A stretch of 39,202 nt of DNA from Candidatus Calditenuis fumarioli (lineage in GTDB: Archaea > Thermoproteota > Nitrososphaeria_A > Caldarchaeales > Calditenuaceae): contig JANVYR010000001.1 in NCBI GenBank assembly GCA_030059665.1, positions 1 to 39,202 of the forward strand, read 5' to 3'. Each line of letters opens with the position of its first letter. Within the stretch, counting starts at the first letter, position 1. Positions 6,597 to 29,407 of this stretch are shown one piece after another. The notes below the pieces were generated by a model, which was not told the origin of the DNA, ran no database searches, and worked only from the letters and a program-made list of their open reading frames with translations. The translations under genes were made by a program, and so were the position numbers.

Positions 6597-8264
6597 ATGA
6601 TTGGGTCGCACGTTCTTTTAACGACGCTCCAAGAGTTGGGATTGACGACCGTATTCGGTAATCCGGGCTCGACGGAGGTTCCATGGTTAGACGAGTTGCC
6701 TAAGTTCGAGGGCATATGGTACGTCCTCGCCCTTCATGAGTCTATCGCCGTGAGCATGGCAGACGGGTATGCCCAGGCTAGAAGGGGACCTGCCGTCGCA
6801 TCCGTTCACGCGTCTCCGGGCTTCCTCCACTGCATGAGCGCCTTATATAATGCTAAGGTCGCAGGGACGCCGGTCATTGTACTAGCTGGTCAGATCGAAA
6901 GCGAGATCCTCATAAGGGATCCATTCTTGGCCTCGGATTTTGTGTCTGCTTCACGGGGATATGCAAAATGGGCATGGGAACTCAGGTCGGCAAACGAGAT
7001 AAGGTATGCTATTAGGAGGGCTGTAAAGGTAGCCACATCTCCTCCAACCGGACCTGTAGTTCTTTCAGTCCCCAGAGATTTCTTCGACGAGGAGATAGAA
7101 TGGGACATGCCGATGCCTACAGACTACAGGTCGGTACCTTGGGACTACGCACCGGAGGAAGACGTAATTGAGAGAGCCTCGGAACTCCTCCTCAATTCCG
7201 AGTCCCCTGCCATGATATGTGGGCCCGAGGTAAGATGGTTCAATGCGATCCCCGAGTGTGTTTCACTTGCAGACCTCCTGGGACTCAAGGTCTACGACGA
7301 CGTGCGATTTGGGATCTATTTTCCAGTTACCCACCGCTTCTATTTCGGAAGTTTCACCAAAGACGACCTCAAATCCCACGACCTCATTCTAGTTGTTGGT
7401 CAGAAATTATTTTATGAGAGGACCCGTGAACAAGTCCCCCTCGTGAGCAGGAATCAAAGGATTCTGCACATAACCACGGATCCCATTGAGCTCGGAAAGA
7501 ACTATGAAGCAACCCTCTGTATACTCGGAAATCCAAAGAATGTGGTAGCGAAGTTGGTGAAGAAGTGCTCCGAGAAACTATCATCGTGGTCTGAAAAGGT
7601 TGAGAGGCGTAAGAAGGAGTTGGAGAGGGAAAGATCCGCAAAGCTGGACGAAGACGAGCGTGAGCTGAAGGACTATTACGACAGGAAACCGGTTTCGCCC
7701 CACAGGCTTGTCAGAGAGGTCGATCGCGTCTTCGGAAACAATGGGAGATTGAACGTGGTTGTTGAGGCCGTGACCACGCAGCCCTACATACGTCGATACC
7801 TCAAGTCGCTTACCGGAGACAATTACTATTCGTCACCGGGAGCAGCGCTGGGATGGGGAGTTGCTGCAGCTGTGGGCGTTAAGCTCGCTAGAGGGGAAGA
7901 AGAGGTGGTTTGCTTCACAGGAGATGGTGCGTTCATGTACTATCCACAGTCCCTCTGGACTGCAGCTAGGATGGGACTTAAAATTGTGACCATAATTGCG
8001 AATAACAGAGCCTACATGAATGACAAGCTTCATCTCATGAGCAGAAGAGGCCATGCTTATAAGATGGGGTACTATCAACCAGTCGAAATAGACAACCCTC
8101 CTATCTCATTCGTGAGCATAGCAAAGGGGATAGGTTGCGACGGTTTGGAGGTCAAAGATCCCTCGGAGCTCCAGGACGCGCTGGAGAAGGCCTTATCGAG
8201 CGATCGGCCGTTCGTCATCGACGTCAGGGTAGACCCGGAGGTCTTCGACAGGTCAAGGGTGTGA
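6597..8264 (+). CDS. ThDP-dependent decarboxylase, benzoylformate-decarboxylase-like
   Basis: Thiamine-diphosphate enzyme of the acetolactate synthase/benzoylformate decarboxylase superfamily, 555 aa, full length. The N-terminal PYR domain has FGNPGSTEVPWL with Ser25, the activating Glu48 (ALHESIAVSMADGYAQ) and His71 (SVHASPG). These match Ser26, Glu47 and His70 of Pseudomonas benzoylformate decarboxylase. The C-terminal PP domain has the Mg-ThDP motif GDGAF...NN at about residues 441-469. A lysine/glutamate-rich charged segment (about 325-360) links the domains. It most likely decarboxylates an aromatic or branched 2-oxoacid to the aldehyde; carboligation or oxalyl-CoA-type chemistry cannot be excluded. 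The next gene, an amidohydrolase-fold protein, begins 3 nt after the stop, so they form an operon. Confidence 0.75.
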   Translation: MIGSHVLLTTLQELGLTTVFGNPGSTEVPWLDELPKFEGIWYVLALHESIAVSMADGYAQARRGPAVASVHASPGFLHCMSALYNAKVAGTPVIVLAGQIESEILIRDPFLASDFVSASRGYAKWAWELRSANEIRYAIRRAVKVATSPPTGPVVLSVPRDFFDEEIEWDMPMPTDYRSVPWDYAPEEDVIERASELLLNSESPAMICGPEVRWFNAIPECVSLADLLGLKVYDDVRFGIYFPVTHRFYFGSFTKDDLKSHDLILVVGQKLFYERTREQVPLVSRNQRILHITTDPIELGKNYEATLCILGNPKNVVAKLVKKCSEKLSSWSEKVERRKKELERERSAKLDEDERELKDYYDRKPVSPHRLVREVDRVFGNNGRLNVVVEAVTTQPYIRRYLKSLTGDNYYSSPGAALGWGVAAAVGVKLARGEEEVVCFTGDGAFMYYPQSLWTAARMGLKIVTIIANNRAYMNDKLHLMSRRGHAYKMGYYQPVEIDNPPISFVSIAKGIGCDGLEVKDPSELQDALEKALSSDRPFVIDVRVDPEVFDRSRV

Positions 8265-8267
8265 GAG

Positions 8268-9278
8268 TTGATCATTGATGCGTACACCCACATAACACCC
8301 ATCAGATATCTAAAACAGCTGGGAATGAGAATAGGTGAACCTGCCAGAGCGGCGATCGAGCGACTCGAGCATGCTGGCGAGAAATACAGGCATTTCTGGG
8401 ACGTTGGGGAGAGGGTGAGAGTTCTGAAGGAATACGGGATAGACCATCAGGTGGTTGCAGTACACCACTTCATAGATCCCAATAATTGGGCCGAGGGAGA
8501 GTTACTGCTGGAGCTTTGCAGGGTCCTGAACGATGAGATGGCTGAGATATGCAAGAGGTCCGGTGAAGCGTTAATAGGTATTGGGGCTGCACCGCTGAAC
8601 GCACTCGATATCGGAGGAAGAGAGGAGATGAGGAGGGCAGTCAGGGAGCTGGGTCTCAGAGGCTTCATGGTCGAGACGAACGTCCGCGGTGTTCCAATAG
8701 ACAAATTCGAAGCTTTCTGGGAGGAAGCCAATGAGCTTTCATGTGCAGTTTACGTTCATCCCAACGATCCCCACGAAAAGTCCTGCAGATCATACGAAGA
8801 CGAATACGATATGATGCACGTCTTTGGGTGGCCCTTTGAGACGACCCTCATCCTGACTAGGCTCGTCTTCTCAGGTACGCTCCTCAGGAATCCCAACGTT
8901 AAGGTGGTTGCGCACCATGCGGGAGGAATGATCCCGTTCTTCGCAGGGAGGATTAACGAGTCTTACTCGAGACTCTCATTCCAGCTCCGTCCCGAGCAAA
9001 CCCTTGGGGTCCTATCATCAGGCGAGGTTATAGATCACTTCAAGACCGGTCAGATCTTATACGACACTGCAGTTGGAGGGAACCCGCATGCGATAATGTG
9101 CGCGATTTCCGTGTTCGGTCACGATAAGATGGTCTTCGCAACGGACTTTCCTTGGGGACCCAATGGAGGATTATCGAGGCTTGAGAGGTATCCAAAGATC
9201 GTAGAATCGTTGGGCTTAGATGCCGATCAACTAGAGGACGTCTTCTTCAGGAATGCCAGCAGACTGCTGCGAATCTAG
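8268..9278 (+). CDS. amidohydrolase-2 family protein (ACMSD-like decarboxylase/hydrolase)
   Basis: TIM-barrel metal-dependent protein of the amidohydrolase 2 family (ACMSD, LigJ/LigW relatives), 336 aa. The N-terminal metal motif is altered: DAYTH, with Tyr6 where the usual HxH has its first His, and His8 kept. The remaining ligands are visible: YVHPNDPH (about residue 163), VVAHHAGG (about 217) and the catalytic/metal Asp in FATDFPWG (about 291). Some relatives carry the same Y-x-H variant, so the barrel may hold its metal differently. TTG start directly behind the ThDP enzyme. Non-hydrolytic C-C chemistry (decarboxylation or hydration) on an acid handled by that enzyme is the likely role; substrate unknown. 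Confidence 0.7.
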   Translation: MIIDAYTHITPIRYLKQLGMRIGEPARAAIERLEHAGEKYRHFWDVGERVRVLKEYGIDHQVVAVHHFIDPNNWAEGELLLELCRVLNDEMAEICKRSGEALIGIGAAPLNALDIGGREEMRRAVRELGLRGFMVETNVRGVPIDKFEAFWEEANELSCAVYVHPNDPHEKSCRSYEDEYDMMHVFGWPFETTLILTRLVFSGTLLRNPNVKVVAHHAGGMIPFFAGRINESYSRLSFQLRPEQTLGVLSSGEVIDHFKTGQILYDTAVGGNPHAIMCAISVFGHDKMVFATDFPWGPNGGLSRLERYPKIVESLGLDADQLEDVFFRNASRLLRI

Positions 9279-9311
9279 TCACGAGGATCTAAAGCCCCAT
9301 TGAATGATAGA

Positions 9312-10154: not shown

Positions 10155-10179
10155 GAGCGCTCGCCCTAACTGGTGCTCA

Positions 10180-10386
10180 TTAGCTTCTCACAGTTTTCCT
10201 CTCGACCTCGGGAGCTAACCCCTCTTCGGCAGCCAAGTGCCAGAGGGACCAATGCAACATCATATCGGCGTCCTCAAGCGCCTTCCTCAGACCCGGAGCG
10301 TCTGCCAGCTCAATTGCCTTCCAGACGAGCTCCCTTGCCTGCTTTACCAGCCTGACAACCTCTTCCGTGCTACCGCTCATGCTCAT
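10180..10386 (-). CDS. hypothetical 68-aa helical protein
   Basis: Small protein without a family I recognise. It looks entirely helical: an amphipathic stretch (EEVVRLVKQARELVWKAIEL) followed by a second helix rich in Leu, Trp and His (MMLHWSLWHLAAEEG). No cysteines and no signal peptide. Its start overlaps the end of the acyl-CoA-ligase gene upstream by one base, so it is translationally coupled to that enzyme. The tight coupling, more than the sequence, supports a real gene; it may be a small accessory subunit. Confidence 0.6.
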   Translation of the reverse strand: MSMSGSTEEVVRLVKQARELVWKAIELADAPGLRKALEDADMMLHWSLWHLAAEEGLAPEVERKTVRS

Positions 10387-11747
10387 CAGACCCCCGACGG
10401 GAGGCGCCGCTCCTTCGGCCTGTGATCGAACATCTTCTTCGCCTTCAGCTCGTACCGCGGAAGTGTCCCAGGAGGAACGACCTCGACGTCGAGCCTCACT
10501 CCGATCGCGGCCCTGAGCTCTTCAGCTATCCTCTCGGAGAGGTCCTTGTAGGAATCCCTCGGAACAGACGGATCGGCCTCGACCCTCACCAGCATGTCGT
10601 CCATCCCTCTCTCGTCGAGGCGTATGTGCATCTCCAGGTGCGGCGACGTCCCCGGAACGGACCTGACTATGTTCTCGACTGCCGTCTGGTAGACGTTGAT
10701 GCCCCGTATCTTTACGACGTAGTCCGTCCTTCCCAGGACCGAACCCTTGTAGAGCACCCAGGTGCGCCCGCACTCGCAGGGCTCCGAGTAATGCCACTCG
10801 ACCACGTCCTTAGTCCTGTACTTGATCACCGGTTGGGCCAGCTGTGCGAAGCTCGTGACCACGTTCTCCCCACGCTCCCCTTCGGAGACCAGTTCTCCCG
10901 TCTCGGGGTCGACGACCAGACAGTGGTAATTCGACTCGTTGAGGTGCACGCCGATCTGGGTGGGACACGCAGGCGCTATCGCGCCGACCTCGGCAACCCC
11001 GTAGAGCTCGTAGGCCTTGACGCCGAAGGAGGACTCCAGCTCCTCCCTGAGCTTCGGGAGTGCCGTAGGTCCTGGCTCTCCAGCGCCGTAGAAGTACTTC
11101 AACCCCAGCGACCTGGGGTCAACGCCCATTTTCCTGCAGGTCTCGGCTATGTAAAGGGCGTAAGTGGGGGTGGCGACGAGCACGGTGGGTTTCAGGGCTT
11201 GCATCTGCCTGATCCTGTCCTCCGTGCTTACCCCTCCACCCGAGATCACCTTTGCGCCCAACCTCCTCACCCCCCAGTAGCACGACCAGAAGCCGACATA
11301 CATGCCCCACCCGAAGGCGAAGTAGAACGAGTCCGAAGGTCTGATGCCCACAGCCCAGAAACCGTAAACCCAGTCCTCACCGTACTTGATCGTGTCGTAG
11401 TGCGTGAAGGGGATTCTGAGAGGGGCGCCGGTTGTTCCAGAGGTCTGGAAGACGTGGAGGACGTCGTCGTATTCGCAGGCGAGTGCACCCCCGAACGGCG
11501 GAGACTCGGCCTGGGCAGCCAAGATGTCGTCCTTCGTTACGAAGGGTACCTTCTTGACGAAGTCGTCCATAGTCCTGACGTCATCAGGCTTTACGCCAGC
11601 CTCATGGTATTTCTTATGGTAGAGCTTGGAGTTCTCGTAGGCGTACTTGATGAGCCACCTGATCCTCCTTAAATGCACTCTCTCGAGCTCCTTCCTCGGC
11701 ATGGTCTCCCAGTATTCGTTCCAGAACTGGGCCGTCAGAGATTTCAC
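10386..11747 (-). CDS. phenylacetate-CoA-ligase-like AMP-forming acyl-CoA ligase
   Basis: Member of the ANL superfamily closest in layout to phenylacetate-CoA ligase (PaaK), 453 aa against the usual 430-450. Adenylation blocks in order: P-loop-like FQTSGTTGAPLRIP (about residues 110-123), ELYGVAEVGA (about 250), YRTKDVVEW (about 320) and the C-terminal small domain with IRGINVYQTAVENI and a terminal lysine-rich YELKAKKMF. It would activate an aromatic or arylacetic acid to its CoA ester with ATP. GTG start with an AT-rich TATA candidate (11767-11777) about 25 bp upstream. It heads a leftward set with the 68-aa protein and the EamA transporter and is divergent from hpaB. The exact acid is unknown. 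Confidence 0.8.
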   Translation of the reverse strand: MKSLTAQFWNEYWETMPRKELERVHLRRIRWLIKYAYENSKLYHKKYHEAGVKPDDVRTMDDFVKKVPFVTKDDILAAQAESPPFGGALACEYDDVLHVFQTSGTTGAPLRIPFTHYDTIKYGEDWVYGFWAVGIRPSDSFYFAFGWGMYVGFWSCYWGVRRLGAKVISGGGVSTEDRIRQMQALKPTVLVATPTYALYIAETCRKMGVDPRSLGLKYFYGAGEPGPTALPKLREELESSFGVKAYELYGVAEVGAIAPACPTQIGVHLNESNYHCLVVDPETGELVSEGERGENVVTSFAQLAQPVIKYRTKDVVEWHYSEPCECGRTWVLYKGSVLGRTDYVVKIRGINVYQTAVENIVRSVPGTSPHLEMHIRLDERGMDDMLVRVEADPSVPRDSYKDLSERIAEELRAAIGVRLDVEVVPPGTLPRYELKAKKMFDHRPKERRLPSGV

Positions 11748-11937
11748 GCCGTTTATTTCAAACGTGCTAAAATTTAGTCATTGTTGCAACAAGTTTTGAT
11801 TAATCGTGCATCCCTCTCCTACGCGCGACTAATATGCCCTACAGGGCGTCCGGCGCAGACCAACACGTCCTGAGGACATAAGACCTATGCGTAATCACAC
11901 TTAAAAATTGCCAATAGGGGGGAACTACGCCGCGAAT

Positions 11938-13389
11938 ATGGTCCTGAGATCCGGAAAAGAGTACCTTGAGAGCCTCAAGGACGGCCGGGAGCTCTACATA
12001 GGAAACGAGCTCGTCAAGGACCCAGCCACCCATCCGAAGCTCAGGTACACCGCGCTGAGCGTTGCGAGGTGCTACGACATGCAGATAGCGAAGGCGGACG
12101 AGGTGACCTTCGTCGAGAACGGTGAGCGCTTCAGCAACATCTGGTTGCCCGTGAGGACGAAGGCCGACTTCGAGAGGGTGAGACGTGCAGTCACCCTCTG
12201 GCACGAATCGACGGCCGGAGTCTTCGGCAGGCTCCACGACTACCTCACCATCTGGGTCACCGCGCTCTACATGCTTCACGACGTGCTTGCCAAGCCAGAC
12301 CCGAAGTTCGGCCAGAACATGATCAATTACTACTATTACGCGAGGTCCAGGGATCTGGCCCTGACCCACGCGATCAGCATGCCCCAGATCGACAGGTCGC
12401 CCGGAGCCGGAAGGAAGCAGAACGAGGACCTCCACATCGTGGACGTGAACGACAGGGGCGTGGTGGTGGAGGGGTGCAGAACCGTCAGCACCTACGCTCC
12501 GTTCGCGAACGAGTTCATCACATTACCCCAGCTCCCAGCCAACCCGGACGAGGACCCCGACTACGTCATTGGGTTCGCCCTACCCATGAACACCAAGGGG
12601 CTCGTTTTCTTCTGCAGGGAGGCATACTCCACGCCGGAGGCTCCGTGGGACCACCCGCTGGCGACACTGTACGACGACCTCGACGCCCAGGTCGTCTTCG
12701 ACAGGGTCCTGATACCGTGGGATCGAGTCTTCATCTTCAGGGAACCTAGGGTGAACTTCGAGATATACGACCCGATAATGGCGTATGCGTGCTGGCAGGC
12801 GACCGTCAGGGCAATAGTCAAGTTGGAGTTCATAATTGGACTGGCCCTCAAGTGGGCGGAGATCTTCGGCACCGATTCCTATCCGAACGTGCAGGAGAGG
12901 ATCGGCTGGCTCATAGAGTGGAGGAACGTCCTTTCGGCGGCGATAGAGGGAGTCGAGCTGACGGCCAGGTCCCACAACGGCTTCCTGATCCCCGACGTCT
13001 GGAAGACGTGGCCGCTCGTGATGGTACACGGCACCTACATCTATCCGATGGCCGTCGAGACGCTGAGGGTCCTAACGGGGAGCGGCGTCATAATGAACCC
13101 GCCGTTATCGGTCTACAAGGACGAGAGGCTTAGGAGGTACGTCGAGAGGTACTTCAGGGCTAAGGGAGCTCCGGCACTCGACAGGCTCCTCCTCTCCAAG
13201 TTCATCCACGACATCACGGTAGGAGCTCTGGGAGGACGACTGCTGCAGTACGAGAGGTACTTCGCCGCGGACCCGTTCAGGGTCGCGATAGTCCACTACA
13301 GGTTCTCGGACAAGACGAGGTTCAAGGGCCTGGTCGACAATCAAATGCAGTTCATCAAATCGCTGATGAAAGAGGCCGGAATAGAATAG
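11938..13389 (+). CDS. hpaB: 4-hydroxyphenylacetate 3-monooxygenase-type oxygenase, HpaB family
   Basis: FADH2-dependent aromatic hydroxylase large component, 483 aa from the ATG at 11938 (an upstream TTG at 11908 is possible, but the ATG has AGGGGGGAA before it and gives the normal family start MVLRSGKEYLESLKDGR). The substrate/flavin residues of the family are visible: Arg98 and Tyr102 in GRLHDY and His144 in LALTHAISMPQIDRS, corresponding to Arg100, Tyr104 and His142 of Thermus HpaB. The Cys ligands of the related 4-hydroxybutyryl-CoA dehydratase are absent, so this is a monooxygenase. The flavin reductase partner follows 10 bp later. It probably ortho-hydroxylates a phenolic acid to a catechol for the downstream extradiol dioxygenase. 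Confidence 0.82.
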   Translation: MVLRSGKEYLESLKDGRELYIGNELVKDPATHPKLRYTALSVARCYDMQIAKADEVTFVENGERFSNIWLPVRTKADFERVRRAVTLWHESTAGVFGRLHDYLTIWVTALYMLHDVLAKPDPKFGQNMINYYYYARSRDLALTHAISMPQIDRSPGAGRKQNEDLHIVDVNDRGVVVEGCRTVSTYAPFANEFITLPQLPANPDEDPDYVIGFALPMNTKGLVFFCREAYSTPEAPWDHPLATLYDDLDAQVVFDRVLIPWDRVFIFREPRVNFEIYDPIMAYACWQATVRAIVKLEFIIGLALKWAEIFGTDSYPNVQERIGWLIEWRNVLSAAIEGVELTARSHNGFLIPDVWKTWPLVMVHGTYIYPMAVETLRVLTGSGVIMNPPLSVYKDERLRRYVERYFRAKGAPALDRLLLSKFIHDITVGALGGRLLQYERYFAADPFRVAIVHYRFSDKTRFKGLVDNQMQFIKSLMKEAGIE

Positions 13390-13399: not shown

Positions 13400-13924
13400 A
13401 TGGTCCAGGTTCCAATTGCTGAGGTCATAAAGAGGTTCATGAGGGCATATCCTCAGGGGGTCAGCATCGCAACGACTACGTACGACAAGCGGCCCTGGGG
13501 TCTGACGGTCAGCTCATTCACCTCAATATCCCTGGAACCTCCTCTGATAATGGTCTCCATCGCAAAGGGCTCGAAGAGCCACGAAGCGTTCACATCATCA
13601 GACAACTTGGCGGTCAACATGCTGTCGGCGGGTCAGGAGTCGCTGGCTGAGACATTCGCCGGTAAGGTGCCGCAGGAGCAAAGGTTCGAGCAGGTGAAAT
13701 ACCGGTTTGGGAGATCTGGTGCACCCATCCTTTCTGACGCATGCGCATACCTGGACTGTAGGAGATGGAGGGTCTACGAGGCTGGCGATCACAGCATTAT
13801 CCTCGGCGAGGTCATCGACGGAGGAGTTTACGGATCGCCGTTCCCACTAATCTACCACAACAGGAAATACACAACTGTTGCGTCGGCATACGTCGAGTCA
13901 ATGTACGCTCCTGACTTCTGGTGA
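13400..13924 (+). CDS. hpaC: flavin reductase component, HpaC family
   Basis: Flavin-reductase-like split-barrel protein of 174 aa, the expected size for HpaC. Diagnostic blocks are AYPQGVSIATTTYDKRPWG near the N-terminus, SSFTSISLEPPLIMVSIAKG, NLAVNMLSAGQE and the C-terminal HSIILGEVIDG followed by PLIYHNRKY. It uses NAD(P)H to reduce FAD or FMN, which then diffuses to HpaB. It starts 10 bp after hpaB, so the two form a two-component monooxygenase operon. The adjacent acyl-CoA synthetase begins 49 bp later on the same strand. Confidence 0.85.
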   Translation: MVQVPIAEVIKRFMRAYPQGVSIATTTYDKRPWGLTVSSFTSISLEPPLIMVSIAKGSKSHEAFTSSDNLAVNMLSAGQESLAETFAGKVPQEQRFEQVKYRFGRSGAPILSDACAYLDCRRWRVYEAGDHSIILGEVIDGGVYGSPFPLIYHNRKYTTVASAYVESMYAPDFW

Positions 13925-13973
13925 GTGCCGCAGAACCTCTAACTTAATAGCAGCCCGGAGCGGTCGGTCCACG

Positions 13974-17693: not shown

Positions 17694-17809
17694 ATATCCG
17701 CCTCCGTCACCTGAGCGCATTTGGGTTCTGTTTAAGTTTTTTGCGACACAGTTGATGAGTGTGAAGAAAATATTTTAGGCAGAATGATAAAACCTTCGAA
17801 CGAGCGGAT

Positions 17810-20677: not shown

Positions 20678-21388
20678 TCAGGTCTTGGCCCGCTGGAGCT
20701 GGAAGTAGCGGTAGCGTTGGCGCGCCTCCCGGAGAGTCAGACCAGACTTGACGGACTCGATGATCATCCGCTCCGCCTCCTCAACCTCCTTAGCGTCCTT
20801 TAGGACCTCCTGCGCCCTCTCCTTTGGAACCCTCAGCACGCCTGTGTCATCACCTATTATGAGGTCCCCAGGCCTCACCAAGATGCCGCCGACCTCCACG
20901 GGCACGTTGATGCCGTCTATCTGCAGCCTGTCCTTTCCCGTCCTGGGCAGGGTGCCCTTCGCGAAGATCGGGTATTTCATCTTCAGTATGTTGTCGTAGT
21001 CCCTGAAGACGCCGTCGATTACTGTCCCAGCTATCCCGAGCTTTATGGCCGTGAAGGTCAGGATGTCCCCCCAGCAGGTGTAAGTCGTCACGCCGCCGTT
21101 ATCGATTACGATGACGTCCCCTGGCTGAGCGATCTCGAAGAGGTAATCTCCTATGTCCTCCTTTGTGCCCTGCTCTGCCGGCGAAAGCGGAACGTACCTG
21201 ACCGTGATTGCTGGACCCACCATCTTCACTCCCTGAACCATCGCCTTTATTCCCTCCATAACCCCGTTGATCCTGTTGCGCTCCAGCGCGTCGGAGACGT
21301 TCGGTGTGGACAGATCCCTGAACGCCTCGACGACCTCCTTGGGAACCCGCTCTATCTGCCTGATAACCGTAGGGTTATAGTCGCCCAT
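20678..21388 (-). CDS. RraA/HMG-CHA aldolase family protein 1
   Basis: RraA-fold protein (236 aa), the family that includes 4-hydroxy-4-methyl-2-oxoglutarate/4-carboxy-4-hydroxy-2-oxoadipate aldolase (LigK/ProA) and regulators of RNase E. Conserved blocks: STPNVSDALERN, GPAITVRYVP, QPGDVIVIDNGG, the substrate/metal loop GIAGTVIDGVFRDYD (Arg-Asp pair) and VRPGDLIIGDDTGVLRVP. With a LigAB-type dioxygenase in the same island, the retro-aldol step that yields pyruvate is the most likely function. In archaea the same fold also serves other decarboxylase/aldolase roles. Divergent from a second family member 115 bp away, sharing a promoter region with palindromes. Confidence 0.75.
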   Translation of the reverse strand: MGDYNPTVIRQIERVPKEVVEAFRDLSTPNVSDALERNRINGVMEGIKAMVQGVKMVGPAITVRYVPLSPAEQGTKEDIGDYLFEIAQPGDVIVIDNGGVTTYTCWGDILTFTAIKLGIAGTVIDGVFRDYDNILKMKYPIFAKGTLPRTGKDRLQIDGINVPVEVGGILVRPGDLIIGDDTGVLRVPKERAQEVLKDAKEVEEAERMIIESVKSGLTLREARQRYRYFQLQRAKT

Positions 21389-21502: not shown

Positions 21503-22192
21503 GTGGTCAGCAGGAAGATAGTGGAGGAATTCGAGAAGATCCCGACCTCGAACGTCTCCGACGCGCTCGACAGGTTCAGGATCAAGGGCGGGTTGGAGGG
21601 GATCGTTCCGATAGTTGAGGGGTTGAGGATAGCTGGGACCGCGTTCACGGTGCGCTTCATTCCAGCAAGCCAGGTCGAACTCAAGCCATGGGTGACATAC
21701 ATCGACAAGGCCCAGCCAGGTGACGTGGTGGTCATCGACAACGGAGGCAGGACCTACTGCACCGTATGGGGAGGCCTTCTATCGGCGAGAGCGAGGGACA
21801 TGGGGCTGAAGGGAACGGTGATCGATGGCGTCTGTAGGGACGTCGACGTCATCAAGGCGCTGAGGTATCCCGTCTTTAGCAGGGGTAGGTTCATGATGAC
21901 CGGAAAGGACAGGGTGCAGCTCGCCGGTTTGAACGAACCCGTCACGATCGCCAACGTCCTCGTTAAACCGGGTGACATAATCGTGGCCGACGACAGCGGA
22001 GTAGTCGTGGTGCCCCAGGAGAAGGCGGAGGAGGTGCTGGAGGCCGCGCTGGAGATCTACGAGAAGGAGAGCAAGATCCTCGAGGAGGTGAAGAAAGGCG
22101 TGCCGCTGGCCGAGGCTAGGGCGAAGTACGGCTACGGAGAGCTCCAGAGGCCCAAGACGGCCGCGGGCCAGTCCCAGCAGGCCAAGACGTGA
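21503..22192 (+). CDS. RraA/HMG-CHA aldolase family protein 2
   Basis: Second RraA-fold protein (229 aa). Blocks: IPTSNVSDALDRFRIKGG, GTAFTVRFIPAS, QPGDVVVIDNGG, GLKGTVIDGVCRDVD with the Arg-Asp pair, and VKPGDIIVADDSGVVVVP. A Gln/Ala/Lys-rich tail ends the protein. It begins with GTG 27 bp after its TATA box, so it is leaderless, and it is divergent from its paralog. The two proteins align throughout but differ in the loop before VIDG (CWGDILTFTAIKLG versus TVWGGLLSARARDMG), where substrate-contacting residues lie. They may act on different hydroxy-oxo-diacids or form a hetero-oligomer. It leads into the molybdenum hydroxylase gene 40 bp downstream. Confidence 0.75.
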   Translation: MVSRKIVEEFEKIPTSNVSDALDRFRIKGGLEGIVPIVEGLRIAGTAFTVRFIPASQVELKPWVTYIDKAQPGDVVVIDNGGRTYCTVWGGLLSARARDMGLKGTVIDGVCRDVDVIKALRYPVFSRGRFMMTGKDRVQLAGLNEPVTIANVLVKPGDIIVADDSGVVVVPQEKAEEVLEAALEIYEKESKILEEVKKGVPLAEARAKYGYGELQRPKTAAGQSQQAKT

Positions 22193-22231: not shown

Positions 22232-24676
22232 TTGTCCTTTCTCCCTCCACTCAGGGTCCACGAGAGGGCCAGAGAGGTCGCCCTGAGATGGGTTGGTAGG
22301 CCCATCAAGAGGAAGGAAGACCTGAGGTTCTTAATGGGCAGGGGGCGGTTCGTCGACGACATCAAGTTCGATAACGCGCTCTACCTGGCCTTCGCGAGGA
22401 GCAAGGTAGCACACGCGAGGATCAGACAGGTCGACGTGAGCAAGGCCATGAGGCTGCCCGGCGTCAGGCTCGTCCTGACCGGAAAAGAAGTCGCCGAGCT
22501 GATCAAACCTTGGCCGCATCTCATTCCCACCCCACCATACTATGGAATTGCCGTTGACAAGATAAGATACCAGGGAGAGCCGGTGGCCATGGTCGTTGCG
22601 GAGAGCAAATACGTAGCTGCGGACGCAGCCGAGATGATCGAGGTCGATTACGAACCGTTGAAACCCGTTGTCACGATAGAGCAGGCGCTCGCACCGGACG
22701 CGCCTCAGATACACGACGGGTTCGAGCGAAACGTCGCTTGGAGCAAACGGTACGTGTACGGGGATGTGGAGAACGACTTCGCTAGGGCCGATCGCATAGC
22801 CAGGGGGAGGTACTACTTCCACAGGTTCATATCTTCACCCCTTGAGCCAACCGCGCTGGCAGCGTACTACGACAGGAGCACTGGGGTGCTCACGATTTAC
22901 GACCAGCACCAGCAGGCACCGATGTACCACGCCAGGTACTCGAGGGTGATAGGCATCCCTTCGAACAGGATCAGCATCAAGGTCCCGGATCTGGGAGGTG
23001 GCTTCGGGAACAAGCAGAGCGTGTACCCGTACACCGCACTTGTGGCACTTGCATCGATGCTCACCAACAGGCCTGTGAAGTACGTCGCGTCAAGGTCGGA
23101 GGACCTGATGGCGCTCATGCATTCCCCTGACAGGATCACGGAGGCCGAGTTCGCCTACAGATCTAACGGCGAGATCTTATCCGTCAGGATGAAGCTCTAC
23201 GACAACTTCGGCGCATACCTCAGGCACCCCGACCCTCAGAACGTCACGAGGGCCTTCCCCTCGATCACCGGACCATACAGAATCAAATCCATCGAGATAG
23301 ACGCCACGGGGGTCTTCACCAACACCTGTCCGACGGGACCCAACAGGGGGTTCGGGCAGCAGCACGCGAGCTTCACCTTTGAGAGGATGGTGGACAAGGT
23401 GGCTGAGGAACTGGGGATGGATCCCGCGGAGCTGAGGTTCCTCAACTTCATCAGGCCGGAGCAGATGCCGTACGAGACACCCATAGGCTCCGTTTACGAC
23501 GGCGGTGATTACCCGACCTTGCTTAGGAGGGCACTCGAGCTGGCAGGGTACGAGCAGCTGCGCCGCGAACAGGAGGTCATGCGGAGCAAGGGGGTGCTGA
23601 TGGGGATAGGGGTCGCGGCCATCGTAGAGGGTGGTGCGACGGCTTTCGGCTTCGCGCGTCTCTGGGGTGGGGATCCCAAGCTGGTATCTGGGTACGCCTC
23701 CATGGCAGAAGCGGCATCCCTGAGGGTCCTTCCCGATGGATCGGTTCTGGTAGCGATGGGGACCACTCCCCAGGGTCAGGGGCACGAGACGGTCGCGGCT
23801 CAGATCGTGGCCGATTTCCTGGGCGTGACGCCGGACGACGTCATAGTGATGCCAGGCTTCGACAGCGACGACCATCCCTACAGCGCCTCGGGTTCCGGCA
23901 CGTACGCTAGTAGGTTCTCGCAGATCGGCGTGGGTGCGCTCGTCGGCGCCGCTCTGAAGGTGAGGGAGAAGGTCCTTGCTATCGCGGCCCACAAGCTCGA
24001 GGCCAACCCGGCCGACCTCGTTCTCGAGGACGGAAGGATCTACGTGAAGGGTCATCCGGAGCGGAGCATCACGTTCAGGGAGGTGGCGAGGATAGCGCAC
24101 ACCCGCCTGGGAGAGCTTCCGCCAGACACGGAGGCGGGCCTCGAGGCATATTACACATACAACTTCCCATACAGCAAGCCCGTAGGCGACGACCTGAGGG
24201 GGAACCTCTGCAGCTCGTACAGCGCGCTCGCCGGTGTGGCCGCAGTGGTCGTCGACGCTGAGACAGGACAGATAGGTGTGAAGAAGCTGGTTGTGGTCCA
24301 CGACGCAGGGAGGGCCATAAACCCGCTGATACTCGAGGGTCAGGTGCACGGAGCCGTAGCGAACGGCCTAGGCGGTGCCCTCTTCGAGGGGTTCGAGTAC
24401 GACGAGGACGGGAACCTCCTGACGTCGACCTACATGGATTACCTTCCCATCTCAGCGACCGAGATGCCAGAGCTGATACTCGATCACATGGAGACGCCAT
24501 CTCCCTTCACCGTGCTCGGAGCAAAGGGGTCAGGTGAGGGAGGAACGATACTGCTGCCGGTGCTGATCGGTAACGCAGTCAACGACGCGCTCAGACCTCT
24601 CGGCGTCGAGGTCACCACATCCCGCCTCACACCCCACAACGTCTGGAGGATGATCAAGGAAAGGCGCAGCACCTGA
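22232..24676 (+). CDS. xanthine-dehydrogenase family molybdopterin-binding large subunit 1
   Basis: Molybdenum hydroxylase large subunit (814 aa, full length). TTG start with AGGTGA seven bases before it. N-terminal aldehyde-oxidase hammerhead domain (GRPIKRKEDLRFLMGRGRFV, KIRYQGEPVAMVVAES), then Mo-cofactor domains with VPDLGGGFGNK, TCPTGPNRGFGQQHASF and the C-terminal catalytic-glutamate motif GAKGSGEGGT. The CoxL CO-dehydrogenase loop AYxCSFR is absent, so it is not a form I CO dehydrogenase. It should hydroxylate an aldehyde or N-heteroaromatic/aromatic substrate using water. The FAD and [2Fe-2S] subunits that such enzymes need are not encoded nearby. Same strand as the RraA-family gene and the following hydrolase. 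Confidence 0.85.
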   Translation: MSFLPPLRVHERAREVALRWVGRPIKRKEDLRFLMGRGRFVDDIKFDNALYLAFARSKVAHARIRQVDVSKAMRLPGVRLVLTGKEVAELIKPWPHLIPTPPYYGIAVDKIRYQGEPVAMVVAESKYVAADAAEMIEVDYEPLKPVVTIEQALAPDAPQIHDGFERNVAWSKRYVYGDVENDFARADRIARGRYYFHRFISSPLEPTALAAYYDRSTGVLTIYDQHQQAPMYHARYSRVIGIPSNRISIKVPDLGGGFGNKQSVYPYTALVALASMLTNRPVKYVASRSEDLMALMHSPDRITEAEFAYRSNGEILSVRMKLYDNFGAYLRHPDPQNVTRAFPSITGPYRIKSIEIDATGVFTNTCPTGPNRGFGQQHASFTFERMVDKVAEELGMDPAELRFLNFIRPEQMPYETPIGSVYDGGDYPTLLRRALELAGYEQLRREQEVMRSKGVLMGIGVAAIVEGGATAFGFARLWGGDPKLVSGYASMAEAASLRVLPDGSVLVAMGTTPQGQGHETVAAQIVADFLGVTPDDVIVMPGFDSDDHPYSASGSGTYASRFSQIGVGALVGAALKVREKVLAIAAHKLEANPADLVLEDGRIYVKGHPERSITFREVARIAHTRLGELPPDTEAGLEAYYTYNFPYSKPVGDDLRGNLCSSYSALAGVAAVVVDAETGQIGVKKLVVVHDAGRAINPLILEGQVHGAVANGLGGALFEGFEYDEDGNLLTSTYMDYLPISATEMPELILDHMETPSPFTVLGAKGSGEGGTILLPVLIGNAVNDALRPLGVEVTTSRLTPHNVWRMIKERRST

Positions 24677-24685
24677 CTTGTCCGC

Positions 24686-25681
24686 GTGACCCACGTTCCC
24701 GGAGAACCTCAATCCGAGTTTTTGGTTGGAGATCGAAGGTTTAATAACCAACATCGAACCCTCAAGGACGACTTGTTCAGCCACCACCTGACCCTCAGCA
24801 GGGAGATCAAGGAGTACGCGGGCCTTCTCGAAGGGGTCGTAGACCTTCACGTCCACACGGCGCCGGACGTGCTGCAGAGAGCGGTGGACGACCTCGAGTA
24901 CCTGGAGGCCCTTCGGGAAGTCGGCTATGTAGCGTACCTCTCCAAGAACCACTTCACCGAGACTGCCAGCAGGGCGTACATTCTCAGCAGGCACAGCGGA
25001 AAGGTCAGGGTGCTCGGGGGCATAGTGCTTAACTCGCCCGTTGGAGGGCTGAACCCCTCGGCGGTCGACAAGGCGCTGGCAATGGGTGCGGCTGAGGTGT
25101 GGATGCCCACTCTTGACGCGGAGAACCACATCAGGACCTTCGGCTCGGCGACGCTTCCCACCACCAGCAGAGTCAGGTCCTTCAGGTCTTACAAATCAGC
25201 AGGCGGAATGATCAGGATCCTGGACGACTCCGGCGAGCTGAAGCCTGAGGTGCTGGAGATCCTGGAACTCGTGGCTGAGAGCGACGCCATATTGGGCACC
25301 GGTCACCTGTCGTTGCAGGAGGTTTACAAGTTGGTCGAGGCCGCAAGGAAGGTCGGCGTCAAGAAGATCCTCGTGACGCATCCGCACTTCAAGGCTACGA
25401 GGTTCAGCACGGAGGACCAGCAGCGACTTGCGGGGATGGGAGCTCTGATGGAGCACTGCGCGGTTGCGGGGTATGACCCTAAGGAGCTGGCTGAGGACAT
25501 CAGGCGCGTAGGTCCAGGAAACTGCATCATATCGAGCGACGCCGGCCAGCCGCACAAGGGTCACCCGGTAGACGTCCTGCTGAAGATGATCGCGGAGCTG
25601 AAGGAGCAGGGCATCTCGGACTCAGATATCGAGAGGATGACCAAGAGGAACCCGTCCAGGCTGGTGGAGCACCTGCTCTGA
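24686..25681 (+). CDS. amidohydrolase-fold metal-dependent protein (DUF6282-like)
   Basis: TIM-barrel metal-dependent protein, up to 331 aa. Metal motifs are clear: VDLHVHTAPD (HxH), SKNHF, a cluster around TLDAENH, GTGHLS, VTHPHFK and the final Asp in IISSDAGQP. This pattern matches the family annotated as DUF6282, for which no reaction is established to my knowledge. A GTG at 24686 gives the longest frame, but a TATA-like TTTAATAA (24740-24747) lies about 29 bp before an in-frame TTG at 24773, which would remove 29 poorly structured residues. It lies 9 bp after the molybdenum hydroxylase and 2 bp before a CoA ligase, so it belongs to the same rightward gene set. Lactonase or hydratase activity is a guess. 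Confidence 0.65.
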   Translation: MTHVPGEPQSEFLVGDRRFNNQHRTLKDDLFSHHLTLSREIKEYAGLLEGVVDLHVHTAPDVLQRAVDDLEYLEALREVGYVAYLSKNHFTETASRAYILSRHSGKVRVLGGIVLNSPVGGLNPSAVDKALAMGAAEVWMPTLDAENHIRTFGSATLPTTSRVRSFRSYKSAGGMIRILDDSGELKPEVLEILELVAESDAILGTGHLSLQEVYKLVEAARKVGVKKILVTHPHFKATRFSTEDQQRLAGMGALMEHCAVAGYDPKELAEDIRRVGPGNCIISSDAGQPHKGHPVDVLLKMIAELKEQGISDSDIERMTKRNPSRLVEHLL

Positions 25682-25683
25682 AA

Positions 25684-27279
25684 ATGCGCACCTCCGTGAT
25701 TCCCGAGGCGGTCCAAGAGCGCTTCAACGTAGTCGAGCTGCACCTCGACAGATGGATCAGGAACGGCCTCGCTGAGCGAGTTGCGCTGATAGATCTGGAA
25801 TCGGGCGAGGAGACGACGTACCGCGAGCTCCACAGACTCGCCTGCAGGTTCTCGAACGTGCTTGCTGAACACTCGCTCGAGCTGTTCGATAGGGTCATGA
25901 TAGCGATGAGGGACAGCAGGCTCTCGGTCGCCTCCTTCCTGGGCGCCATGAGGGCCGGAATGGTGCCCTTCTACGTCAACCCGAACTACGGCGTCGACGA
26001 ATTCAAGTTCTTCATCAGGGACAGCCGCTGCAGGGCGATCATCGCAGACCGCTCGACTGCTGAGAAGCTGGAGGTAGCCACAAGGGAAGTGGGCAAGCAC
26101 GTGAAGGCGATGGTGAACGTCGACCGCGATGGCTTCAGCGATCTCCTCGAGGATTTCAGGGACGAATACCCGCTTGCGGAGACGCATAAGGACGATCCCG
26201 CGTACATAGTGTACACATCAGGCACAACGGGCCGACCTAAAGGGGCGGTTCACCTACATCACGACCTGGTTTACGCCGTTGGCCCCTATGTCTCCAACGT
26301 GATAGACGTCAGGGAGGGCGACGTCTTCTATTCCGCGTCTAAACTGTATTTCTCTGCGGGAAGGATGTTCGGGCTCCACATACCGCTGATGTGCGGTGCG
26401 ACCAGCTTGATAGACCCGGAGAGGTCAACGCCAGAGCGCGTGCTGGCGGCGATTTCAGGACGCGACGTAACGCACCTGCTCTGCGTCCCCACCCTTTACC
26501 TCCGGATCCTCAACCACCTGGAACGACTGGGGGTCCGGACGCTGGAGCGGAGGGCCTTGAGGTACTGCGTCTCGGGCGGCGAGCCACTGCCTGCCTCGGT
26601 CTTCGAGAGGTGGAGAGAGGTCACGGGTCTTGAGATACTGAACGGTATAGGAAGCTCGGAGGCCGAGTGGATCTTCATCTCCTACAGGCAGGGAGAATGT
26701 AAGCCTGGCTCCTCGGGCAAGGTCATACCGGGATGGGAGGCCAAGTTGGTAGACGAATCCGGACAGGAGGTGACCGAGCCGTATAAAGTGGGCGTTCTTT
26801 ACATAAGCTCCGACAGCGTCGCCGCCTTCTACTGGAGGAGGAGCGAGGAGACCAGACGGACGTTCATCGGTAGGTGGTACAACACGATGGACATGCTGTA
26901 CTTCGACCAGGACGGGTACCTGCATTACGTGGGAAGGAGCGACGACCTGTTCAAGGTGCACGGGATGTGGGTCTCACCTGCGGAGGTGGAGGACGCCATC
27001 CTGGCAACGGGCCTGGTGCAGGAGTGCGCGGTGATCGGTCTACCCACGTCCGAGGGTCTGACGGAGGTCGTGGCGTTCGTTGTCCCTAAGGACCCATCAA
27101 ACCAGCGGCTCGAGGAGGAGCTGAAGGCAGCTCTAGCAGACCGAATACCGAGATACAAAATTCCCAGTAAGGTCCTAACGGTCGATGAGATACCGAAGAC
27201 CGCAACCGGAAAGGTCAGGCGGACCGCGCTGAGGGAGATGGCGATGAGCGGGCTCATCAAGCGGGCGGGTGAGCTGTGA
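25684..27279 (+). CDS. benzoate-CoA-ligase family AMP-forming ligase 2
   Basis: Second ligase of the benzoate-CoA ligase group, 531 aa. Motifs: YTSGTTGRPKGAVHLHHDLV (P-loop, about residue 178), KLYFSAGRMFGLHIPL, CVSGGEPLPASVFERW, NGIGSSEAEWIFIS, YNTMDMLYFDQDGYLHYVGR and PKTATGKVRRTALRE with the catalytic Lys. It resembles the ligase at 16080-17693 but differs in the acyl-pocket loop (SAGRMFG versus AYGLGNT), so it probably takes a different acid. ATG start two bases after the preceding stop; its own end overlaps the next amidohydrolase start (GTGA). This places it firmly in one operon with two metal-dependent barrels. Confidence 0.8.
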   Translation: MRTSVIPEAVQERFNVVELHLDRWIRNGLAERVALIDLESGEETTYRELHRLACRFSNVLAEHSLELFDRVMIAMRDSRLSVASFLGAMRAGMVPFYVNPNYGVDEFKFFIRDSRCRAIIADRSTAEKLEVATREVGKHVKAMVNVDRDGFSDLLEDFRDEYPLAETHKDDPAYIVYTSGTTGRPKGAVHLHHDLVYAVGPYVSNVIDVREGDVFYSASKLYFSAGRMFGLHIPLMCGATSLIDPERSTPERVLAAISGRDVTHLLCVPTLYLRILNHLERLGVRTLERRALRYCVSGGEPLPASVFERWREVTGLEILNGIGSSEAEWIFISYRQGECKPGSSGKVIPGWEAKLVDESGQEVTEPYKVGVLYISSDSVAAFYWRRSEETRRTFIGRWYNTMDMLYFDQDGYLHYVGRSDDLFKVHGMWVSPAEVEDAILATGLVQECAVIGLPTSEGLTEVVAFVVPKDPSNQRLEEELKAALADRIPRYKIPSKVLTVDEIPKTATGKVRRTALREMAMSGLIKRAGEL

Positions 27280-28163
27280 CCGCACCAGAGGACCTCTGGA
27301 TCAACGACGTCCACATTCACGTCAATCCGTTCTCGAAGTTGAAGAGGCCGGCGTTCGAGTTCTTCGCGACCAACCCGGACTTCCGGGAGAACTGGCAGAG
27401 GATCGAACGTGACCCGGAATACCTCATCCGGAGGATGGACGAGGACAGGGTGAAGAGGGCAGTCCTGATCAACTACGTCGCTGAGGAAGTCATGGGATAC
27501 GACGTCTCTACGAACCAATACGTATACGAGTACTGCAGGGATCACAGGGACAGGCTCCTGCCCTTTGCTGGCGTGGACGTTCGCATGGCCCCTCGGGAGT
27601 TCAGGGAGCAGCTCGAGACGGCGTACTCCAAGTACGAGGTCGAGGGCTTCAAGCTCCACCCTGTCCACCAGCTCGTCTACCCGAACCAGTACAGGGAGGA
27701 GTACGGCGAGCGGGCCGTGAGGAACCTCGAGACCTTCTACCAGTTCTGCAGCGACCACGGATTGCCCGTTACCGTCCACACTGGAACGTCCATGTTTCCG
27801 GGAGCCAGGCTGAAGTACGGTCAGCCTATACACCTCGACGACGTGCTGGTCGACTTCCCGAGGCTGAGGCTTCTGATGGCGCACGGCGGCCGTCCCTTCT
27901 GGATGGACGAGGCCTTCTTCCTCATGCGACGCCACAGGAACCTCTACCTAGACGTCTCTGGGATCCCACCGGGCAAGCTGCTCGAGTACTTCCCGAGGAT
28001 CGAGGAGGTCGTTGACAGGGTGTTATTTGGGAGCGACTGGCCGAGCCCCGGCGTGAAGGGGATGAGGGAGAACGCCCTCGGGATCTGGAAACTGAACGGG
28101 CTGTCGGAGGAGGCCAAGTTGCGGATACTGGTGAGGAACTTCGACGAGTTCTTCAAACGGTAG
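27276..28163 (+). CDS. amidohydrolase-2 family metal-dependent hydrolase/hydratase/decarboxylase
   Basis: Amidohydrolase 2 family barrel, 295 aa. The full metal set is present: DVHIH (His13, His15), GFKLHPVHQ (Lys about 125), TVHTG (His about 168), LMAHGG (His about 203) and FGSDWPSPG (Asp about 254). Relatives include 4-oxalomesaconate hydratase LigJ, pyrone-dicarboxylate lactonase LigI and aromatic acid decarboxylases. With LigAB- and LigK-like proteins in the same island, the hydratase or lactonase step is attractive but unproven. GTG start overlaps the stop of the CoA ligase by four bases. It ends the rightward set; the next gene is convergent. Confidence 0.75.
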   Translation: MTAPEDLWINDVHIHVNPFSKLKRPAFEFFATNPDFRENWQRIERDPEYLIRRMDEDRVKRAVLINYVAEEVMGYDVSTNQYVYEYCRDHRDRLLPFAGVDVRMAPREFREQLETAYSKYEVEGFKLHPVHQLVYPNQYREEYGERAVRNLETFYQFCSDHGLPVTVHTGTSMFPGARLKYGQPIHLDDVLVDFPRLRLLMAHGGRPFWMDEAFFLMRRHRNLYLDVSGIPPGKLLEYFPRIEEVVDRVLFGSDWPSPGVKGMRENALGIWKLNGLSEEAKLRILVRNFDEFFKR

Positions 28164-28180
28164 ATCCGTAGGTGAGCTCT

Positions 28181-29407
28181 TCAGCCGGCTGAGCGGAGCC
28201 GCTGCACCAGCTCGACCACCTCCTCATCCGTCAGGTCCCTCTTCAGCAGCATGGCCCTCGACTTGATCGCCGTTAGTAGCCGATCGACTTCCTGCTCGCT
28301 GACCTCTATGCCCAGCTTCTGGAGCTTGTAGCGCAGTGAGTCTCGTCCGCTCTTCTTCCCGATTACCACCCGCACAGGAGGCTGACCGACCAGCTCGGGA
28401 AGGAACGGGAACACCTCGTTCGGATACTCGTGCTCGACGTTGACCCACCACCCGGCAACGATCCCGGACTCGATGTGGAATATCCTGTCACCTACGACCG
28501 GATGTTGGGGCTCGAGTTTCACCCTTGAGAGCTCCTCCACCAGCTTCGAGAGCTTCTTCAGCCTTTCCGTCCTGACGTTGACCTCGACTCCGTAAAGAAG
28601 CTTCAAGGCCATCACCGTCTGCTCGAGCGACGCGTTCCCGGACCTCTCACCTATCCCGTTGACGGAGACGTGAACCGTCTCCACGCCGTTAACCACGGCG
28701 AAGACGGTGTTGGCTACAGCGAGGCCGAAGTCGTTGTGAACGTGGATCTCCAGCGGTTTCCCCACACGGGACCTGAAGAGGCTGACGAAGCGTGCTATCG
28801 CGTGAGGGGAGCATGCCCCGAAGGTATCGACGAGGACGAGCGAGTCCATGTGACCTTCGGTTGCCACCGAGTTGATGAGCCGCCAGGCGGTCTGGAAAGG
28901 AGCCCTGGTCGAGTCTATCGTGAAGAAAGCCACATAGAGCCCGTGTTCGTGTGCGTACCTGGTGGCGTCGACTGCCAGCTGGATGGCCCTCTCCTCATCC
29001 CATCTGTAGGCCCTTCGCAAGAGGTGATCGCTGGACGGTATCTCGACCACCACTCCATCCACGTCGCACTTGAGAGCCAGGTCGATGTCGCTCCTCAAAC
29101 ACCTCGAGAACGCGAAGACCTTGGAGCTGAGACCGAGTTTTGCGATCTCCTTCACGGCCTCGAAGTCCTCCTGGGAGACCGCGGGCATACCCGCCTCGAT
29201 CCTGTCAACCCCGGCCTCATCCAGGGCCCTGGCGATCTCGAGCTTCTCGGCTTTCCTGAACGCTACACCAGCCTGCTGCTCACCGTCCCTCAGCGTCACG
29301 TCGTGAACGTACACCCGTTTCGGCATGTCACGCAGCTGCCGCAGAACCTCTTCATCGAAGTTGTAATGACTTACGAAATACCCTTCTCCGACATGCTTTT
29401 CGTTCAT
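28181..29407 (-). CDS. DRE-TIM metallolyase, LeuA/homocitrate synthase-like
   Basis: Claisen-type condensing enzyme of the 2-isopropylmalate/homocitrate/citramalate synthase family, 408 aa. The signature VHDVTLRDGEQQAGVAFRKA provides the catalytic Arg-Asp, HVHNDFGLAVANT the metal histidines, and NGIGERSGNASLEQ the second family signature. The C-terminus (residues about 300-408) corresponds to the linker and subdomains of homocitrate synthase-like proteins; the LeuA leucine-binding domain is absent. It would join acetyl-CoA to a 2-oxoacid, or run a related lyase reaction. Monocistronic, convergent to the catabolic set. Homocitrate synthase, citramalate synthase and 2-isopropylmalate synthase cannot be separated by eye. 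Confidence 0.75.
   Translation of the reverse strand: MNEKHVGEGYFVSHYNFDEEVLRQLRDMPKRVYVHDVTLRDGEQQAGVAFRKAEKLEIARALDEAGVDRIEAGMPAVSQEDFEAVKEIAKLGLSSKVFAFSRCLRSDIDLALKCDVDGVVVEIPSSDHLLRRAYRWDEERAIQLAVDATRYAHEHGLYVAFFTIDSTRAPFQTAWRLINSVATEGHMDSLVLVDTFGACSPHAIARFVSLFRSRVGKPLEIHVHNDFGLAVANTVFAVVNGVETVHVSVNGIGERSGNASLEQTVMALKLLYGVEVNVRTERLKKLSKLVEELSRVKLEPQHPVVGDRIFHIESGIVAGWWVNVEHEYPNEVFPFLPELVGQPPVRVVIGKKSGRDSLRYKLQKLGIEVSEQEVDRLLTAIKSRAMLLKRDLTDEEVVELVQRLRSAG

Follow-up and report, generated by a model that had tools for sequence, protein, structure and literature searches.

Does the beginning of contig C1 of an archaeal genome (JANVYR010000001.1, assembly GCA_030059665.1, Candidatus Calditenuis fumarioli; 1.57 Mb, 91% complete) encode the aerobic breakdown of aromatic acids, and by which kind of route? 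The window analyzed here, the first 39,202 nt of this contig, contains between positions 6597 and 29407 a catabolic island that the initial annotation described as a complete-looking hydroxylate/cleave/hydrate/aldol set of the gallate type. When we assigned gene families by Pfam, NCBIfam and PDB searches, all of the families named there were recovered in place, with the kind corrected for the two Amidohydro_2 proteins. We conclude that this archaeal aromatic-acid island is real and conserved and that, while its general kind is known, its combination of parts is new. On balance we favor the reading that its genes serve to import phenolic acids, probably of the hydroxybenzoic type, and to degrade them aerobically along a pathway whose end resembles that of bacterial gallate degradation.

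The predicted ring-cleavage enzyme is a LigB-LigA pair. LigB matched PF02900 at 120 bits and LigA matched PF07746, and in our alignment the LigB iron ligands H12, H59 and E236 as well as active-site residues H121 and H191 were invariant, confirming the annotated LigBA-type enzyme as a class III extradiol dioxygenase of the LigB superfamily. Scanning genome_contigs with the LigB alignment returned only four loci. In a phylum sample of 398 genomes, 17 had a LigB-like match, seven of which belonged to the window's own LigB group. The LigBs of Calditenuaceae, SZUA-1515 (a relative from the same order, deposited as Ca. Caldarchaeum) and the Sulfolobaceae group formed one clade (98/93), which in the best tree was nearest to the dioxygenases of bacterial clusters carrying RraA pairs (85/92; support of 73 in a quick rebuild). 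The tests did not reject a sister placement with any of three groups: these bacterial dioxygenases, the LigBs of the f13 family (taken to be Pyrobaculum) or the gallate/protocatechuate clade. The assignments to Sulfolobaceae and Pyrobaculum were deduced from group codes together with published gene content. Among the genes tested, the f13 locus contained Rieske and electron transfer flavoprotein alpha proteins and no RraA, for which reason we did not let it guide the interpretation.

We then compared the gene order with that of relatives, the closest named ones being the Candidatus Calditenuaceae metagenome-assembled genomes (MAGs) SKYB91 and SKYB46, which makes the source an Aigarchaeota (Caldarchaeales) genome. 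With MAGs of 73–91% completeness for Calditenuaceae and SZUA-1515, gene absences in relatives are weak evidence. SKYB91, a second species, retains most of the island at 69–89% identity, so chance grouping of the genes is not an issue. It also joins this island to genes that in the source genome lie on a second contig, C3, forming a single cluster that runs PaaK, HpaB, HpaC, ADP-forming acyl-CoA synthetase, BCL1, molybdenum (Mo)-hydroxylase genes, isochorismatase, Liv genes with RraA3, ACS and epimerase, followed by LigB, LigA, 4HBT, solute-binding protein, RraA1, RraA2, MoL1, DUF6282 and AH2b. The SKYB91 contig begins at the PaaK gene, which excludes the thiamine pyrophosphate (TPP) enzyme and AH2a from the comparison. 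In SZUA-1515, RraA3, 4HBT, BCL1, AH2b, DUF6282 and Liv genes share one cluster, with LigBA on other contigs. On C3 itself, second copies of LigB, LigA and HpaB are consecutive, and a Liv-type ATP-binding cassette (ABC) transporter set lies within ~6 kb, with RraA3 inside it at a distance of 5 kb; the cluster also holds a hydrolase of the isochorismatase family and a further large subunit of a Mo-hydroxylase. The consecutive order of the three genes is direct evidence for joint action of the hydroxylase and the ring-cleavage enzyme, as had been proposed from the window. This C3 cluster had been overlooked in the initial annotation, as had DUF6282 (a third amidohydrolase-type protein), the 4HBT protein after LigA and the large Mo-hydroxylase.

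The window HpaB is 59% identical to the HpaB beside LigBA on C3. It scored 236 bits against HpaB monooxygenases, and an HpaC-type reductase gene is adjacent, in agreement with the annotated HpaBC hydroxylase. Identity as a 4-hydroxybutyryl-CoA dehydratase was ruled out, the scores against dehydratase/isomerase relatives being 63–87 bits.

Turning to the aldol step, the window contains two divergent RraA genes whose products are 49% identical. Their annotation as RraA-family aldolase candidates held, but not their identity as LigK: RraA1 and RraA2 scored 100 and 114 bits against the 4-carboxy-4-hydroxy-2-oxoadipate (CHA)-aldolase model NF006731 (cut-off 179) and grouped with bacterial RraAa/RraAb proteins in a sister clade to LigK. 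In contrast, RraA3, at 124.6 kb on C3, fell on the LigK side of the tree (95/89) and passed NF006731 with 203.7 bits, although it remained below the stricter TIGR02798 (179.5 vs. 304.5 bits). All three proteins keep the Arg-Asp pair; Arg-123 is essential in the P. putida aldolase (PMC5065237). In Metallosphaera yellowstonensis we found an operon ordered LigA, PIG-L (37% identical to GalB), LigK, LigB, whose aldolase is 45–48% identical to bacterial LigK and exceeds the CHA-aldolase cut-off; a single operon there holds all three enzyme types of bacterial gallate degradation (dioxygenase, hydratase and aldolase). Comparative genomics thus backs the general hydroxylate/cleave/aldol reading, and LigBA genomes carry LigK-type RraA proteins. 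RraA occurred in 65 of the 398 phylum genomes, so we did not count its presence by itself as proof. Co-occurrence within this sample exceeded chance for LigB with RraA (5/7, p = 0.0015), LigB with DUF6282 (4/7, p = 0.0002) and DUF6282 with RraA (p = 0.0005), in tests that make no correction for relatedness and include 64 of the 65 RraA genomes.

Bacterial relatives of RraA1 and RraA2 were found with LigB-superfamily dioxygenases and LigJ-family and LigK proteins; other such clusters lacked a dioxygenase, for which reason we treat them as supporting evidence only. One recurring bacterial cluster (L104, L106, L107 and L108) combines a LigB-superfamily dioxygenase (two are annotated as hypothetical), a tandem RraA pair and an amidohydrolase of the LigJ family; RidA is present in most cases and LigK in many, and the whole looks like an undescribed meta-cleavage pathway; the pNL1 stretch examined contained no LigB-type dioxygenase.

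The two Amidohydro_2 proteins, AH2a and AH2b, had been assigned to the LigJ/LigI family. Both are indeed Amidohydro_2 proteins, but neither is LigJ or LigI. We detected no significant similarity to authentic LigJ (BLAST E values of 0.8–4.8; the references came from complete bacterial clusters, one of them confirmed against solved PDB LigJ structures), and neither protein is similar to LigI. After strand 8, where every LigJ-type protein aligned has Glu, a metal ligand in LigJ, AH2a and AH2b have Asp instead. AH2a is nearest to ACMSD-type decarboxylases in the PDB, and a homologue was found in a TPP-enzyme cluster in Pacificitalea; AH2b is nearest to an uncharacterized amidohydrolase and to haloarchaeal amidohydrolases. 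In AH2a and its bacterial and haloarchaeal relatives, Tyr or Phe replaces the first metal-binding His of the HxH motif. The established gallate pathway in its strict form, with LigJ and LigK in the window, accounts for the broad folds (Amidohydro_2 and RraA) and for the lack of a clear LigC. Given the missing LigJ similarity, the Asp-for-Glu difference and the placement of RraA1 and RraA2 outside the LigK clade, it is nonetheless highly improbable, and by these sequence comparisons it is already refuted for the window proteins that had been named.

DUF6282, in contrast, keeps the full amidohydrolase-type residue set (HxH, Lys, His, His, Asp), which is invariant. Its gene lies ~10 kb from the LigA-PIG-L-LigK-LigB operon in M. 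yellowstonensis and directly adjoins PIG-L and LigK in a second Metallosphaera-group genome (G269; PIG-L-LigK-DUF6282). The order in Thermus oshimai is catechol dioxygenase-GntR-DUF6282-PIG-L-LigK, with 4-hydroxybenzoate 3-monooxygenase and Liv transporters in the same stretch. DUF6282 also adjoins PIG-L in Alicyclobacillus dauci, and a further genus of the window's family has RraA3, RraA2 and DUF6282 side by side. With intact amidohydrolase residues and PIG-L, LigK or RraA as neighbors, DUF6282 is a stronger candidate for the pathway than either AH2a or AH2b and, judged from its sequence and gene context, the best island candidate for a post-cleavage step. We found no solved close relative in the PDB and no paper on the family in a search of open-access literature, and AlphaFold models from two-sequence alignments were poor (mean pLDDT of 45 for DUF6282 and 44 for AH2b). 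At L138:7671–11238, PIG-L, LigK, DUF6282 and a D-2-hydroxyacid dehydrogenase stand in a row in a genome without a LigB match; here the downstream module may work with a different dioxygenase or on a different substrate.

Several observations weigh against the favored reading. The source genome has no LigJ, GalB or GalD homologue, an absence consistent across the genus members tested, so that by the known parts list the set is not complete-looking as annotated. PIG-L/GalB (PF02585) was missing from the source genome, SKYB91, SKYB46 and SZUA-1515 and present in M. yellowstonensis, and the PrpF fold of GalD and LigU (PF04303) was missing from the source genome. In the best trees the archaeal LigBs fall outside the 100/100 gallate/protocatechuate (LigAB/GalA/DesB) clade to which LigB had been likened, although forcing them into it was not rejected (p-AU 0.066), and LigB shares only ~30% identity with each of the bacterial class III dioxygenases. 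RraA proteins are widespread without aromatic pathways (PMC5065237). SKYB46 keeps LigBA, and RraA was not found in this 73% complete MAG. Finally, the RraA/DUF6282 module occurs without LigB in one related genus and one Metallosphaera-group genome and can therefore act without this dioxygenase. As for LigC, a search of the genome gave only a generic Gfo/Idh-type match (N-terminal, 30%, ~0.55 Mb away); the annotated lack of LigC stands in the form that there is no convincing one, which agrees with a direct gallate-like route and does not prove it.

The substrate of LigBA bears on the same question. Two of the four DesB residues that bind the gallate carboxyl are Tyr391' and Tyr412' (PMC3962378). 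The alignment gave no counterpart to either in the archaeal LigA, which is short and ends before that C-terminal region, so gallate itself is not supported as the substrate. With the iron site intact and the tyrosine region missing, the sequence therefore does not fix the substrate, which may be gallate, protocatechuate or another carboxylated catechol. LigBA might instead cleave a catechol without a gallate/protocatechuate-type carboxyl (e.g., homoprotocatechuate, 2,3-dihydroxyphenylpropionate or catechol), to be followed by a hydrolytic or dehydrogenase meta pathway, with RraA and DUF6282 serving another acid. Such a route would suit the missing tyrosines, the existence of the RraA/DUF6282 module apart from LigB, the fact that HpaB is best known for 4-hydroxyphenylacetate, and our observation that LigB scored alike against gallate, protocatechuate and carboxyethylcatechol dioxygenase models. 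However, among the island genes tested there was no 2-oxopent-4-enoate hydratase, FAA-type decarboxylase or semialdehyde dehydrogenase, and the M. yellowstonensis LigB relative shares its operon with GalB-like and LigK proteins; we consider this alternative unlikely.

Large xanthine-oxidase-family Mo-hydroxylase subunits lie near catabolic genes at 22232–24676 and 37326–39202 and on C3 (L004:17906–19894), with no adjacent FAD or Fe-S subunits. The isochorismatase-family hydrolase on C3 (L004:17260–17898), which is kept in SKYB91, is nearest to RutB/biuret hydrolase models and hints at a nitrogen-containing substrate. One could thus picture an amino- or N-heteroaromatic acid that is hydroxylated by the Mo-hydroxylases, opened by LigBA, decarboxylated by the ACMSD-like amidohydrolase and relieved of ammonia by the isochorismatase-fold amidase. 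The likeness of AH2a to ACMSD, the recurrence of large Mo-hydroxylase subunits near LigB at several loci, the RutB-like hydrolase and the RidA of the bacterial RraA-pair clusters fit this scheme. We nevertheless regard it as quite improbable: HpaB and the aryl-CoA ligases better match phenolic acids, AH2a lacks the first metal-binding histidine, and the archaeal clusters showed no deaminase of the RidA type.

The remaining island genes may feed the favored phenolic-acid route. The TPP enzyme had benzoylformate decarboxylase as its best NCBIfam model (329 bits, under the curated cut-off of 493) and scored ~206 bits against the PDB benzoylformate decarboxylase, so the annotated likeness is borne out. 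The three aryl-CoA ligase-like enzymes (PaaK-like, BCL1 and BCL2) and the ADP-forming acyl-CoA synthetase were likewise confirmed. SKYB91 and SZUA-1515 each have a BCL1 orthologue within the corresponding gene set, and the 4HBT thioesterase occupies the same place in SKYB91 and accompanies BCL1, RraA3, AH2b and DUF6282 in SZUA-1515. Homologues of the Liv-type solute-binding protein lie near LigB on C3, in SKYB91, in SKYB46 and at one SZUA-1515 locus.

The gene families, the intact catalytic residues, the conservation of the gene set and the linkages of HpaB with LigBA and of DUF6282 with RraA are all read from the sequences compared; from them we infer the substrate, step order, hydratase and LigK-type end point in this organism. 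The Liv-type ABC system would import the acid, and the CoA ligases, 4HBT thioesterase, TPP decarboxylase and Mo-hydroxylase would convert side-chain-bearing aromatics into a hydroxyaryl acid. HpaBC would add a hydroxyl to yield a carboxylated catechol or a trihydroxybenzoate, which LigBA would open to an oxo-tricarboxylate. Since no known hydratase is encoded, tautomerization or hydration of this product would have to fall to DUF6282, AH2b or RraA1/RraA2. An RraA-fold class II aldolase, for which RraA3 is the best candidate, would then split the product into two small keto acids, with RraA1 and RraA2 perhaps assisting or alternating with it. A more specific proposal, which we advance tentatively and would place well short of probable, is that the gallate/protocatechuate-like pathway of thermophilic archaea entrusts its tautomerase/hydratase step to the uncharacterized amidohydrolase-type family DUF6282, to a dedicated RraA pair or to both, in place of GalD with GalB or LigJ.

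Features of the aromatic-acid island, with positions in the 39,202-nt window
Feature	Position	Strand	Basis
TPP-dependent decarboxylase, benzoylformate-decarboxylase-like; likely a feeder step acting on arylglyoxylate or the like	6597..8264	+	Pfam TPP_enzyme N/M/C
AH2a, Amidohydro_2, ACMSD/decarboxylase-like group, first HxH His is Tyr; not LigJ	8268..9278	+	Pfam, PDB
PaaK-like aryl-CoA ligase	10386..11747	-	AMP-binding_C_2 and PaaK models; 82% in SKYB91
HpaB, FADH2-dependent aromatic hydroxylase, oxygenase component	11908..13389	+	HpaB_N, HpaB
HpaC-type flavin reductase	13400..13924	+	Flavin_Reduct; HpaC/HPAH reductase models
ADP-forming acyl-CoA synthetase; start more likely 13974	13878..16088	+	CoA_binding_2, Succ_CoA_lig, ATP-grasp_5; NCBIfam acetate-CoA ligase type
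BCL1, benzoate-CoA ligase family	16080..17720	-	TIGR02262, 537 bits (cut-off 375)
LigB, class III extradiol dioxygenase catalytic subunit	17810..18628	+	PF02900
LigA, small subunit	18640..18939	+	PF07746; 3' of LigB in every Calditenuaceae copy
4HBT-fold thioesterase, possibly frees hydroxyaryl acid from CoA ester	18944..19351	+	PF13279
Liv-type ABC solute-binding protein, probable aromatic-acid uptake	19369..20595	-	Peripla_BP_6
RraA1, RraAa/RraAb clade, not LigK; catalytic Arg-Asp kept	20678..21388	-	RraA family
RraA2, RraA1 paralogue (49%)	21503..22192	+	RraA family
MoL1-type large (molybdopterin) subunit, xanthine-oxidase-family hydroxylase/aldehyde oxidase; no small subunits alongside	22232..24676	+	Domain models
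DUF6282 amidohydrolase-type protein; best candidate for post-cleavage step	24686..25681	+	PF19799
BCL2, benzoate-CoA ligase family	25684..27279	+	TIGR02262, 404 bits (cut-off 375); absent at same place in SKYB91
AH2b, Amidohydro_2; not LigJ/LigI	27276..28163	+	Pfam; kept with island in SKYB91, SZUA-1515
Isopropylmalate/homocitrate-synthase-family enzyme, probably housekeeping neighbor	28181..29407	-	HMGL-like; IPMS/homocitrate synthase models

On the 5' side of the island, positions 1956–6503 encode three consecutive NMT1/THI5-like substrate-binding proteins with twin-arginine-like starts, the second and third ~48% identical, with no permease or ATPase alongside; a related protein is encoded near LigBA in SKYB46. 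The region 3' of the island (29769–36062) is an ordinary archaeal neighborhood of a JAB/MPN-domain protein, a DNA methylase, a CTP-dependent riboflavin kinase with a helix-turn-helix and 2-oxoacid dehydrogenase E2/E1-beta. Another Liv-type ABC transporter operon, together with two acyl-CoA dehydrogenases, lies just downstream of the window (L003:4237–8077).

If the favored reading is correct, an uncultivated Aigarchaeota lineage of hot springs mineralizes aromatic acids of the lignin or humus type, using class III extradiol cleavage and, as the last step, a LigK-type aldolase. The analysis also gives DUF6282 and the RraA pairs a function that can be tested, and it offers thermostable enzymes for use in aromatic chemistry.

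Sulfolobales are known to carry out meta-cleavage with type-I enzymes, and a listing from 2012 included class III relatives to which no function had been assigned (PMC3512248, PMC7820114); the annotated view that such a pathway is little known in archaea is thus fair for the class III type, and our searches of open-access literature found no description of an archaeal pathway combining a class III extradiol enzyme with a LigK-type aldolase. The phenol/catechol meta-cleavage of Saccharolobus solfataricus resembles the proposed route as aerobic ring cleavage in an archaeon but uses a type-I catechol 2,3-dioxygenase rather than a class III LigB enzyme (PMC7820114, PMC3512248). Among bacterial systems, the Thermus oshimai pTHEOS01 cluster likewise has Liv ABC transporters and a DUF6282 gene that adjoins those for a GalB-like PIG-L protein and a CHA aldolase, although a catechol-2,3-dioxygenase-type enzyme and 4-hydroxybenzoate 3-monooxygenase take the place of LigBA and HpaBC. 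The clusters of Bradyrhizobium, Rhodococcus koreensis and Aminobacter, in which a dioxygenase accompanies RraAa-RraAb, LigJ, RidA and often LigK, share a LigB-superfamily dioxygenase (the nearest bacterial group, at the weak 85/92 placement) and RraA relatives of 41–47% identity; the archaeal cluster contains neither LigJ nor RidA and carries LigA, HpaBC and DUF6282. Protocatechuate 4,5-cleavage (LigAB-LigC-LigI-LigU-LigJ-LigK) has in common a two-subunit LigBA and an RraA-fold aldolase, whereas the archaeon lacks a LigU or LigJ homologue, a LigI among the island proteins and a convincing LigC, and has the order LigB-LigA. The bacterial gallate pathway (GalA/DesB, GalD, GalB or LigJ, LigK) differs in that the archaeal LigB and LigA are separate genes outside the gallate/protocatechuate clade in the best trees, GalB, LigJ and GalD are missing, RraA1 and RraA2 belong to another clade and DUF6282 is added. 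It is matched by the LigB-superfamily dioxygenase, the LigK-type RraA in the genome, the lack of a clear LigC and, in the relative M. yellowstonensis, a LigB that shares its operon with GalB-like and LigK proteins.

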